IMG/VR virus record: IMGVR_UViG_3300030104_000829
Location: 1 to 63,107 of that record
From: a virus
Length of the DNA stretch: 63,107 nucleotides
Strand: one strand, 5' to 3'
A program made the position numbers and the translations under genes. The notes beneath the pieces are model-generated. The model saw only the letters and a list, made by a program, of their open reading frames with translations. It made no database searches and was not told where the DNA came from. Below are positions 4,648-63,107 of this stretch, piece by piece. Within the stretch, counting starts at the first letter, position 1, and each line of letters opens with the position of its first letter.

Positions 4648-6204
4648 ATGTCAGACTTAATAGTCAAAAACCTTAACTTTGGTGACAAAGCTAGGGAAGA
4701 AGTATTTAAAGGTATAACAAAACTCACAAATGCTGTTAGCTCCACACTTGGAGCTAGCGGTAAATGTGTAATGTTAGAAGATCACAATGGTAAACCAGTT
4801 ATAACTAAAGATGGTGTAACTGTTGCCGATTCAGTAATATTGAGAAACCCTGTTGAAAACATGGGTGCTACACTTATAAAAGAAGCGGCACGCAAAACAG
4901 TTAGAGAAGCTGGAGACGGCACAACAACAGCAACAGTATTAGCGCATGCTATATTAGAAGAAGCTTATAAGGTTTCTAATAAAACAAACTCAAGAGAATT
5001 AAAAGAAGGTATAAACAAAAGTGTTAAAAAAGTAGTAAAATACTTAGAATCAATTTCAGTTCCAGTAAAAGGAGACATGCTAAAACAAGTTGCTTCAATA
5101 TCTACTAATAATGATGAAGTTCTTGGATCTATTATAGCAGATGCTTTTAATTCTGTAGAAAACACTGGTGTTGTTATGATGGAAACAGCTGAAGATGGAA
5201 AAACAAGTTTTGAAGTTATAGATGGAGTTCAATACGATAAAGGATTAAAAAACTCTCATTTTATAAATAATAAACAAAACAAGTCTGCTGAACTAGAAAA
5301 TCCACTAGTATTATTAATTGAATCACCAGTTGATACAATTAGACAAATTCAACCCGTGCTAGAGCACGTAATAAAAAACAATAAACCCTTGCTTATTATA
5401 GGCGATTTAGAACAGGGTGTTTTATCAGCTCTAGCAATGAATAAGATGAAGGGTAATATAAAAGTCAATGTTATAGACGCGCCTACATATGGAGTAAACA
5501 AACAGCAAATGCTACAAGATTTATCCATGCTTACTGGTGCTACTATAATAAATGAAGACTTAGGTGATGATATGGAGATGATACAAGTAGATCATTTAGG
5601 TTCATGCTTAAAAAGTGTTACCACCTATGATAATACTGTTCTTCAAATAGCTAATCAATCAGATGAAACAAAAGCTATAATTGAAGATATAAAAGAAAAA
5701 GTATTAAAAGAAAAAAATCCTAATTTAGTTATAAAATTAGAAAAAAGACTAGCAATGTTAGCTGCTAAAATAGCTATAGTTAAAGTAGGTGCTAATTCTG
5801 AAATTGAATTAAAAGAAAAACTAGATAGAGTCGAAGACGCTATTTGTGCTACTAAAGCTGCTGTTAAAGAAGGCATAGTTTCAGGTGGGGGTATTGCTTT
5901 GTTAAACGCTGCTTTAAAAATGAAAGGGAAAAGTGATGGTGAAAAAGTTTTAAGCAAAGCTATATTATCTCCGTATAAAACAATACTGCATAATGCTGGA
6001 ATTGAAAACAAAGAAATACCAGCAAAAGAAAAATATGGTATTGATGTAGTTACAGGAAATATGGTACATATGATTAATTACGGTATAATAGATCCGTTAT
6101 TAGTTACAAAAAGCGCTCTTCAAAACGCAGCTTCTGTAGCAACAACAATACTTTCCACTGATTGTGTAATCAATAATTTAAGAATAGATGAAAGCAATAG
6201 GTAG
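4648..6204 (+). CDS. groEL: Chaperonin GroEL (phage-encoded)
   Basis: 518 residues (bacterial GroEL about 548). ATP-binding motif [11 protein letters not shown], the TKDGVTVA segment and the GGGIALLNA segment of the equatorial domain are all present, so the ATPase should be active. The hydrophobic Gly-Met C-terminal tail of bacterial GroEL is missing. A groES follows with a 17-base overlap, the reverse of the usual bacterial order. It sits among virion genes, pointing to folding of capsid or tail proteins inside a 14-mer ring. Confidence 0.95.
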
Positions 6205-17869: not shown

Positions 17870-20250
17870 TGAATATATATACTAATACCAGAAGTGATTT
17901 CCCTAGTCAAGTAGTGAGTGATGCTGAAAAAGCCAGTATTGAGTATGGTAGACAAGTAGCACAAGCTATAGAACACGAGTGGTTTTCTCAAGGTAGAACT
18001 ACGGGTAATAGGTATTTAACCGCTTGGAATAATTTTCACCAACTAAGATTATATGCTAGAGGTGAGCAGTCAATACAAAAATACAAAGATGAATTATCTA
18101 TTAATGGTGATTTATCATATCTTAATTTAGACTGGAAACCTGTTCCTATATTATCTAAGTTTGTAGATATAGTGGTTAATGGTATATCTGAAAGAACCTA
18201 TGATATAAAAGCTTATGCTCAAGATCCTGAGTCAATAAAGAAAAGAACTGAATACGCTTCTAAGATATATGAAGACATGTTAGCTAAAGAATATTTAGAT
18301 AACTTAAAAAATACTCTTGGAATTGATTTACATCAAGTACCTAATCCAGAATTATTACCAGAATCAGAAGAAGAGTTAGAGTTACACATGCAATTAAGCT
18401 ACAAGCAATCATTAGAAATAGCTGAAGAAGAAGCTATATCTAGTGTTTTAGCTCAAAACAAGTATCAATTAACAAGACGTAGGCTTAATATGGATTTAAC
18501 AGTTTTAGGTATTGCTGCTTGTAAGACAAATTTTAACACAGCTAACGGTATAACTGTTGATTACGTAGATCCTGCTTATATGGTATATTCTTACACAGAA
18601 GATCCTAATTTTGAAGATGTATATTATGTAGGTGAATTAAAAGCTGTAACAATACCGGAGCTTAAAAAAGAGTTTCCAGACATAACGGATAAAGAATTAG
18701 AACGTATACAAAATATGCCCGGTAATAGATCTTATATTACTGGTTGGGGTGATTATAATAGTAATACTGTTCAAGTTCTTTATTTTGATTATAAAACATA
18801 TCATAATCAAGTATTTAAAATTAAAAAGACTGATCAAGGTTTACTTAAAGCCATAGAAAAAGATGACACTTTTAATCCAGTTGAAAACGATAATTTTGAA
18901 AAAATATCAAGATCTATAGAAGTATTATATAGCGGAGCAAAAGTATTAGGTACAGATACAATGCTTAAATGGGAGCTTGCTGAAAATATGTCAAGACCTT
19001 ACGCTGATACTACTAAAGTAAAAATGAATTACTCAATTTGTGCGCCAAGAATATATAAAGGCAGAATAGAATCTTTAGTTAGCAAATGTATTGGTTTTGC
19101 TGACATGATTCAACTTACTCATTTAAAACTACAACAAGTAATGTCTAGAATAGTACCAGATGGTGTTTATTTAGATATGGACGGTTTAGCAGAAGTCGAT
19201 TTAGGTAATGGAACAAATTATAATCCAGCTGAAGCATTAAACATGTATTTTCAAACTGGTTCTATTGTAGGTAGATCACTTACGCAAGATGGTGATATGA
19301 ATCCTGGTAAAGTACCTATTCAAGAATTAAATTCTAGTTCAGGTCAAGGTAAAATACAAAGCCTTATAAATACTTATCAGTATTATTTACAAATGATACG
19401 CGATGTAACCGGACTTAATGAAGCTAGAGATGGTAGTACACCAGATAAACAAACGCTTGTAGGGTTGCAAAAGATGGCTGCTAATGCATCTAATGTTGCA
19501 ACAAGACACATTAAGCAAGCTGGTTCTTATTTAACTCTTAGAATATCAGAAAATATTGCGTTAAAAATAGCTGACGCGTTAGAATTTCCATTAACAGCTG
19601 AGTCTTTAACCAACTCTATTAGTAATTACAACGTCAATACACTAAAAGAAATTGTTAATTTGAATTTACATGACTTTGGTATATTTTTAGAATTAGAGCC
19701 AGATGATGAAGAAAAAGCTCAACTAGAACAAAATATTCAAGTTGCTCTACAGGCTGGTGGTATTAATCTTGAAGATGCTATTGATTTGAGGCAAATAAAA
19801 AATCTTAAATTAGCTAATCAATTACTTAAAGTAAAGCGTAAGCAAAAAGCTATTAAAGATCAAGAAAACGCTCAAGCTAACATTAGAGCTCAAGCAGAAT
19901 CTCAAGCAGAGGCTAATGAAAAAATAGCAATGAACGAGGTTCAAAAACAAGAAGCTATTAGTGGCTCTAAAGTTCAATACGAACAAGCTAGAACACAAAT
20001 GGAAATACAAAAAATGAATAATCAAGCTCAACTTGATATGCAAAAAATGCAAATGCAACATGAGTTTGACATGCAGTTAGCTCAAGTGCAATCACAGGCT
20101 AATGCTCAAAATAATTCTGCTAAAGAAGCAGCTAAAGATAAGCGTATAAAAATGGAAGGTACGCAGCAAAGTAAAATGATAACACAAAGGCAAAATCAAA
20201 TGCTTCCAATAAATTTTGAACAAGAAGCAGAAGAACCGCCTGTTGTTTAA
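17869..20250 (+). CDS. Portal protein
   Basis: 793 residues, starting one base before the terL stop ends (TAATG). The central body with VDYVDPAYMVYSYTEDPNFEDVYY, KMNYSICAPRIYKGRIESLVSKCIGFADM and the following helix fits large podovirus-type portals. The last 150 residues are a Gln-, Ala- and Met-rich coiled coil, resembling the long barrel of portals that reach into the capsid. Identification rests on size, this composition and position between TerL and scaffold. Confidence 0.8.
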   Translation: MNIYTNTRSDFPSQVVSDAEKASIEYGRQVAQAIEHEWFSQGRTTGNRYLTAWNNFHQLRLYARGEQSIQKYKDELSINGDLSYLNLDWKPVPILSKFVDIVVNGISERTYDIKAYAQDPESIKKRTEYASKIYEDMLAKEYLDNLKNTLGIDLHQVPNPELLPESEEELELHMQLSYKQSLEIAEEEAISSVLAQNKYQLTRRRLNMDLTVLGIAACKTNFNTANGITVDYVDPAYMVYSYTEDPNFEDVYYVGELKAVTIPELKKEFPDITDKELERIQNMPGNRSYITGWGDYNSNTVQVLYFDYKTYHNQVFKIKKTDQGLLKAIEKDDTFNPVENDNFEKISRSIEVLYSGAKVLGTDTMLKWELAENMSRPYADTTKVKMNYSICAPRIYKGRIESLVSKCIGFADMIQLTHLKLQQVMSRIVPDGVYLDMDGLAEVDLGNGTNYNPAEALNMYFQTGSIVGRSLTQDGDMNPGKVPIQELNSSSGQGKIQSLINTYQYYLQMIRDVTGLNEARDGSTPDKQTLVGLQKMAANASNVATRHIKQAGSYLTLRISENIALKIADALEFPLTAESLTNSISNYNVNTLKEIVNLNLHDFGIFLELEPDDEEKAQLEQNIQVALQAGGINLEDAIDLRQIKNLKLANQLLKVKRKQKAIKDQENAQANIRAQAESQAEANEKIAMNEVQKQEAISGSKVQYEQARTQMEIQKMNNQAQLDMQKMQMQHEFDMQLAQVQSQANAQNNSAKEAAKDKRIKMEGTQQSKMITQRQNQMLPINFEQEAEEPPVV

Positions 20251-62704: not shown

Positions 62705-62718
62705 ATATTTAATTTTAG

Positions 62719-62792
62719 GTGCGCCAGCAGGATTCGAACCTGCGACCTCTAGGTTATGAGCCTAGCGAGCTGACCAACTGCTCCACAGCGCA
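62719..62792 (-). tRNA. tRNA with CAT anticodon (Met, or Ile2 if modified)
   Basis: Full cloverleaf on the minus strand: acceptor TGCGCTG/TGGCGCA (two wobble pairs), D-arm GAGC/GCTC with AGTTGGTCA loop, anticodon arm CTAGG-CTCATAA-CCTAG, T-arm GCAGG-TTCGAAT-CCTGC. The anticodon stem lacks three G-C pairs of initiators, so it is an elongator-type Met or a lysidine-type Ile tRNA. CCA is not encoded. Confidence 0.93.
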
Positions 62793-62798
62793 ATATAG

Positions 62799-62877
62799 TG
62801 GAGGTGGACAGAATCGAACTGTCTTCCGTAATAATTCCTTTGCAGGCTTTTTACTACGTCAAAACCATATCACCCCC
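62799..62877 (-). ncRNA. tmRNA-like tRNA domain lacking the mRNA-like part (79 nt)
   Basis: Minus strand 5' GGGGGTG pairs with 3' CACCTCC (7 bp), including G3-U70, the alanine identity pair. A D-loop ATATGGTTTTGAC without D-stem resembles the conserved tmRNA GGxTTCGAC loop. GTAGTAA/TTATTAC forms a 7-bp helix-2-like stem capped by a CCT-GCAA-AGG hairpin, and a T-arm GACAG-TTCGATT-CTGTC follows. The tag ORF and pseudoknots are absent. Six bases separate it from the tRNA. Confidence 0.65.
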
Positions 62878-62881
62878 CAAA

Positions 62882-62964
62882 AATACCACCTGTCACTACG
62901 ACTGGCTTTGTACAACTGATACCTCAAGGAAGCCAAGGCGTCGATTTACTGTTAGGGTGGTATT
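62882..62964 (-). terminator. Long structured stem-loop ending in T-run
   Basis: In the minus-strand RNA AATACCACC (62964-62956) pairs perfectly with GGTGGTATT (62890-62882), followed by TTTT. Inside, CGAC/GTCG and GGCTT/AAGCC add further stems. It lies 4 bases before the tmRNA-like RNA and could be a terminator or a separate structured RNA. Confidence 0.45.
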
Positions 62965-63107
62965 GCTAGCAATTCACTTATGTGCGTGTAATACACTTCC
63001 GATTTCCATAAGGACTCACATACACACCTAATTAAGCTACTCGTCTAGCTATTTACGCTTCACAACCGTGCACTACTATTTCAAGCTGTGATTGTTCTTC
63101 GCGCTAT
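62965..63107. other. Non-coding end region with small hairpins
   Basis: No gene of its own. In the minus-strand RNA TATGTG/CACATA can pair, a palindrome ATTGCTAGCAAT lies at 62962-62973, and a tRNA D-arm-like GTAGCTTAATTAGG occurs without the rest of a tRNA. If the genome is circular, the last about 32 bases encode the end of the zinc-ribbon gene that is cut at base 1. Confidence 0.35.

Follow-up and report, generated by a model that had tools for sequence, protein, structure and literature searches.

The transfer-messenger RNA (tmRNA) of mycobacteriophage DS6A has been called 'TLD only', as it is limited to the tRNA-like domain (TLD), and strong inhibition of tmRNA in E. coli has been described for a molecule like it (PMC4131195; PMC11915505). 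Inhibition was independent of whether the molecule could be charged, and titration of SmpB was proposed (PMC4131195). DS6A is the sole phage example of a TLD-only tmRNA described in the literature searched. It was reportedly first described by Mao et al. in 2009. Full-length tmRNAs are also encoded by phages (mycobacteriophages Bxz1 and Wildcat, Bacillus phage G, and Melnitz), but these are listed as full ssrA genes that include a message and so could tag proteins. The message has been lost and the tRNA-like part kept in the mitochondrial tmRNAs of jakobids and oomycetes and in the plastid tmRNAs of Mallomonadaceae, the latter being about 65 nt long; however, these are organelle genes, the mitochondrial ones usually permuted, and their presumed role is in rescue for the cell itself, with SmpB encoded in the nucleus. 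Among 97,179 tmRNAs, a 2025 database includes nine of standard form without a coding sequence (PMC11915505). The present work concerns a 79-nt element near one end of IMG/VR virus record IMGVR_UViG_3300030104_000829, all 63,107 bases of which were analysed and are referred to below as the window. Like the DS6A molecule, to which it is likened by description and not by sequence, the element is phage-borne and represents a tRNA-like domain without a message. Comparison with its relatives shows or strongly implies a conserved and structured RNA that has ends like those of a tRNA, the alanine identity elements G3-U70 and A73, and the positions at which tmRNA contacts SmpB, but that carries no message.

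The element in the window

The complete tmRNA model RF00023 (positions 1-374 of 374) was aligned by cmscan to window positions 62796-62877 with a score of 64.7 bits (E 2.8e-24), and 304 model positions, covering the message and pseudoknot region of ~300 nt, were collapsed to 12 nt in the element. The sequence of the element, read on the minus strand, is GGGGGUGAUAUGGUUUUGACGUAGUAAAAAGCCUGCAAAGGAAUUAUUACGGAAGACAGUUCGAUUCUGUCCACCUCCA. Its predicted fold consists of a 7-bp acceptor stem with the G3-U70 pair, a stem-less D-loop, an 8-bp P2 stem with an internal loop, a 3-bp hairpin with a GCAA loop and a 5-bp T-arm, and has an energy of -26.4 kcal/mol (z = -3.2 as compared with shuffles). An earlier note on this DNA had proposed an AlaRS-type tmRNA tRNA-like domain without a message at this position, including the G3-U70 pair, the stem-less D-loop and the T-arm. 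The end-to-end match to RF00023 and the fold bear out each of these features (Table 1).

ARAGORN called neither a tRNA nor a tmRNA at the element, reporting only the neighbouring tRNA-Met, and a tRNA-type D-stem and 7-nt anticodon loop are absent from the fold. An ordinary tRNA was thus rejected. A whole-window Rfam scan with fast filters also did not pick up the element. As both ARAGORN and the fast-filter scan miss it, RNAs of this type are easily overlooked.

The acceptor stem with G3-U70, the stem-less D-loop, the T-arm, the P2 stem and the alanine identity are shared with canonical tmRNA (ssrA, RF00023). In contrast, the element is 79 nt rather than about 350 nt long and includes neither a tag reading frame with a resume codon and stop nor the pseudoknots PK1-PK4, for which there is no space in 79 nt. 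No tag frame is kept among the relatives. A stretch in the P2 loop resembles the sequence upstream of the tag in E. coli tmRNA (GUAAAAAGCC.GCAAA), but a shortened tag frame in this loop was rejected because the relatives keep neither the GCA codon nor a frame, and the likeness was treated as chance. The encoded 3' end of the element is A-CUA; hence, CCA must be added after processing.

Table 1. Positions in the window of the element, its parts and the adjacent tRNA gene
Feature	Position	Strand	Evidence
Message-less tmRNA (TLD-only) gene, 79 nt	62799..62877	-	RF00023, 64.7 bits over the full model; own covariance model R1, 82.5 bits
Acceptor stem, 5' strand GGGGGUG (G3 at 62875)	62871..62877	-	Fold, covariation
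Stem-less D-loop AUAUGGUUUUGA	62859..62870	-	RF00023 alignment; same D-loop recovered when the search leaves the D-loop free
P2a stem, 5' strand CGUAGUAA	62851..62858	-	Fold; both-side changes at all 8 P2 pairs
Conserved P2 tip: AAAG internal-loop strand, then hairpin CCU-GCAA-AGG; replaces the mRNA-like domain and pseudoknots	62837..62850	-	RF00023 alignment, fold, relatives
P2a stem, 3' strand UUAUUACG	62827..62834	-	Fold, covariation
GAA linker between P2 and T-arm; A at 62825 equivalent to E. coli A334 (SmpB Trp122 pocket)	62824..62826	-	A in 81/83 representatives; contact from PMC8363625
T-arm GACAG-UUCGAUU-CUGUC	62807..62823	-	RF00023 alignment, fold, covariation
Acceptor stem, 3' strand CACCUCC (U70 at 62802), and discriminator A	62799..62806	-	RF00023 alignment, fold, acceptor-free scan
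tRNA-Met(CAU), 6 nt downstream of the element	62718..62792	-	ARAGORN

Conservation of the short form and its signatures

Related elements were sought in successive scans with a short-form pattern, a looser pattern, an acceptor-free scan in which only the D-loop and T-loop were fixed, and a D-loop-free scan. The short-form pattern was found in 21 viral contigs and the looser pattern in at least 119. The latter gave 12 matches in 84,980 bacterial and archaeal species genomes, two of which are identical Phycisphaerae sequences that look like chance. With all scans pooled, the strict census holds 237 loci, 227 of them viral (the window included), and 188 distinct true sequences of 59-85 nt, mostly 77-80 nt. 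The short form is conserved in related and unrelated phages alike. Cultured carriers are the Streptomyces phages Shaeky, LuckySocke, GiJojo, pSt2308 and BRock, and Stenotrophomonas virus Jojan60, while Alone3 gave a BLAST match across the full element. The element is unannotated in these cultured Streptomyces and Stenotrophomonas phages; in the Streptomyces phages, it lies among tRNA genes and has no RNA annotation of its own. In LuckySocke, it occupies positions 17977-18054 of OR725497. No carrier was found among plasmids searched with seven query elements.

The covariance model R1 was built from 87 sequences, and 101 matches were realigned, about five of which are weak and probably tRNA. Both-side changes were observed at 20 of the 23 base pairs, and 93.7% of cells pair. 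The covariation score of 0.711, as compared with 0.155 for shuffled and about 0.09-0.11 for slid controls, comes from an alignment that was fitted to the structure and is hence biased towards it, but the margin over the controls is large. In the first census, the T-stem is fully paired in all 138 parses, though the pattern had fixed only its innermost pair. The earlier note had also pointed to a hairpin with a GNRA-type GCAA loop; this is present in the window element, but the GNRA loop is not kept in relatives. In most representatives, the P2 stem (roughly 8 bp) leads into AAAG or a closely similar sequence and then a short-looped C-C-N/N-G-G hairpin, with AA preceding the return strand, and it is this AAAG/AA internal loop and hairpin that are kept. 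The module, of which no description was found in the literature searched, is replaced by a plain hairpin in a minority of elements, 59-72 nt long.

The first patterns fixed GGGG/CUCC and thus gave no test of G3-U70. Among the 78 paired elements recovered by the acceptor-free scan, 76 have G3-U70, and the two exceptions are a register artefact (L172) and a chance match (L214). Discriminator A73 is present in 78/78, whereas pairs 4-69, 5-68 and 6-67 occur as GC, CG, UA and AU, with compensation. A dedicated scan for C70 returned one poorly paired GC-rich match only, and a dedicated scan for A3-U70 returned no match. The third acceptor pair is what AlaRS reads in tmRNA (PMC8363625; PMC2584231). 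As judged from the sequences, the invariance of G3-U70 and A73 while pairs 4-6 vary implies selection for charging with alanine in message-less tmRNAs.

U17 and G19 of the tmRNA D-loop touch SmpB, with G19C preventing binding, and E. coli A334 is part of the pocket for SmpB Trp122 (PMC8363625). The equivalent of A334, a position unconstrained in the pattern, is A in 81 of the 83 representatives. The D-loop GG..T.GAC, which includes the equivalents of U17 and G19, was recovered unprompted by the D-loop-free scan, which found 32 new loci with this standard loop, as well as length variants. In the pool, which includes loci from the earlier loop-fixing scans, 98 of 130 D-loops are standard, and most of the 32 non-standard sequences show this loop enlarged by at least one base. 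A gene for SmpB was found in none of 38 carrier records, many of which are fragments, and host SmpB would therefore be used.

Proposed function and alternative explanations

With moderate confidence, the element is read as a phage gene whose product is a tmRNA tRNA-like domain standing alone; charged with alanine and bound by SmpB, this RNA would act as a competitor that blocks or diverts host trans-translation. It would be processed like a tRNA and charged with alanine by the AlaRS of the host; together with SmpB and EF-Tu, likewise supplied by the host, it would reach stalled ribosomes as a rival of host tmRNA. Given that it has no resume codon or tag, trans-translation could not be finished, and would be left incomplete by the phage RNA, such that host ribosome rescue and ssrA tagging would be inhibited or diverted during infection. 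This decoy or jamming role, which the earlier note had raised, agrees with the published work on TLD-only molecules. However, there is evidence that weighs against it. Inhibition in E. coli needed no charging, yet the phages always keep the charging signature, and simple titration thus does not explain the conservation. Furthermore, tag-less mitochondrial tmRNAs persist and are thought by others to help rescue (PMC11915505).

The persistence of the mitochondrial forms speaks for a minimal form of rescue, in which the alanyl-RNA enters stalled ribosomes with host SmpB and accepts the nascent chain, adding one untemplated alanine, after which the peptidyl-RNA drops off or is hydrolysed by host Pth, so that the ribosome is freed and no degradation tag is added. 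The strictness of G3-U70 and A73 suggests that peptidyl transfer to alanine matters. Nevertheless, we regard such rescue as unlikely, since H. pylori does not survive a tmRNA in which the resume codon is a stop (PMC2584231), and a message-less tmRNA should therefore not complete rescue; moreover, no gene for Pth or an RF-1-type release factor was found in the 41 carriers searched. A broader proposal, that phages of many host groups run their own message-less rescue in which an alanyl-charged, SmpB-bound RNA takes the stalled chain and adds an untemplated alanine without a degradation tag, with the P2 internal loop and hairpin as a dedicated replacement for the mRNA-like domain, is seriously doubtful. 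Similarly improbable is a passive sink, whereby charged or uncharged RNA would titrate SmpB away from tmRNA with no role for ribosome entry. Though it is the explanation suggested for the E. coli inhibition, a pure sink would not need an alanine identity that stays invariant while the adjacent pairs drift. Since no true phage copy departs from the charging signature, we think that entry into the ribosome or transfer of the peptide matters, rather than SmpB titration alone.

A role outside trans-translation, with the RNA serving as an alanyl-RNA donor or as a decoy for another host factor or a tRNA-recognising defence nuclease, could account for the P2 internal loop and hairpin being kept beyond the expected needs of a TLD, and for the frequent proximity of the element to tRNA genes: 26 of 122 loci have a tRNA no more than 500 bp away, where random positions in these loci would give 5.3%, and in 24 of the 26 it is on the same strand as the element. 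We consider this role very improbable, as the D-loop and the A334-type SmpB positions are kept, for which a plain mimic of tRNA would have no use. The earlier note had further allowed for a remnant of integration into ssrA, and ssrA is indeed often used by integrative elements, with ssrA fragments occurring in prophages (PMC9004378). This suggestion did not hold, and an ssrA integration scar was rejected, given that the element is complete from 5' to 3', covaries over its relatives, often adjoins tRNA genes and is mostly in records without a detected integrase (integrase in 6/38 carriers). Within the phage group of the window, the element is 78-99% identical, and the match often ends at the element boundaries while the flanks differ. 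Such turnover of the flanks around a retained element likewise argues against a pseudogene, and the chance that the element is a pseudogene, an att-site remnant or an ordinary tRNA is negligible. The competitor of host tmRNA described above remains the favoured reading.

Genomic context and other carriers

In the window, the element and the adjacent tRNA-Met(CAU) probably share a transcript, in keeping with the closeness to tRNA genes seen over the 122 loci. Most loci have no tRNA on the stretch examined, and thus the gene also stands alone. No protein neighbour recurs across unrelated carriers, where only lineage-specific synteny and common phage genes were seen. The ~230 nt upstream of the element (window 62878-63107, minus strand) gave no Rfam match to another RNA; pieces of this segment are common to relatives L012, L004, L112 and L014 in a mosaic arrangement. 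The window encodes a terminase and a portal protein (PHROG families), a primase/helicase, ribonucleotide reductase and GroEL. Flavobacterium elemo phages have a terminase with 44% identity to the one in the window, and an uncultured podovirus has one with 61%; Cellulophaga phages match too. The phage-encoded GroEL (window 4648-6204) is also found in the related Flavobacterium elemo phages and in podovirus ctfjg026.

Most bacterial carriers searched also have a full-length tmRNA. Two Poribacteria genomes include an 83-nt TLD-only form (L136:4093-4175 and L133:1863-1945), the L136 copy lying among chromosomal genes (Na/Ca exchanger, decarboxylase). A full-length tmRNA is present in one of these genomes and none was found in the other, an incomplete metagenome-assembled genome (MAG). 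In a Leptolyngbya MAG, the TLD-only form (L132:5344-5423) lies within an array of 16 tRNAs that is probably a mobile tRNA island, and the contig also holds a full-length tmRNA. Both forms likewise occur in the actinobacterial genomes of Cellulomonas massiliensis and Phytoactinopolyspora halophila (L141:779-858 and L139:27-104); no phage family matched the L141 neighbours tested. A divergent 90-nt candidate in Microbacterium phage Armstrong (L245:1438-1527; 30 bits) has G3-U70 and directly precedes a tRNA-Asn, and its 3' part is common to several related Microbacterium phages. Three matches of the D-loop-free scan (L260, L269 and L286) lie in viral contigs and represent the 3' portion of full-length tmRNAs, with a GGGG stretch ahead; they are possibly att-site fragments and are clearly distinct from the short form. 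Two full-length 'tmRNA' calls by ARAGORN (L027:2976-3318 and L088:5905-6228) were judged spurious, as no tmRNA-type 5' half was seen at the called starts; they have odd tags, join unrelated upstream sequence to a short element and are a source of misannotation.

While a TLD-only tmRNA is already known from one phage, the prevalence of such RNAs, the conserved P2 internal-loop/hairpin module and the charging constraint are new within the literature searched. The 188 distinct sequences suggest that RNA-decoy interference with trans-translation is a common phage strategy overlooked by annotation pipelines, and the conserved charging signature offers a way of telling simple titration of SmpB from active entry into the ribosome by experiment, which cultured Streptomyces phages make practicable. 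In addition, these RNAs would provide a naturally occurring inhibitor of trans-translation, which is under study as a target for antibiotics.
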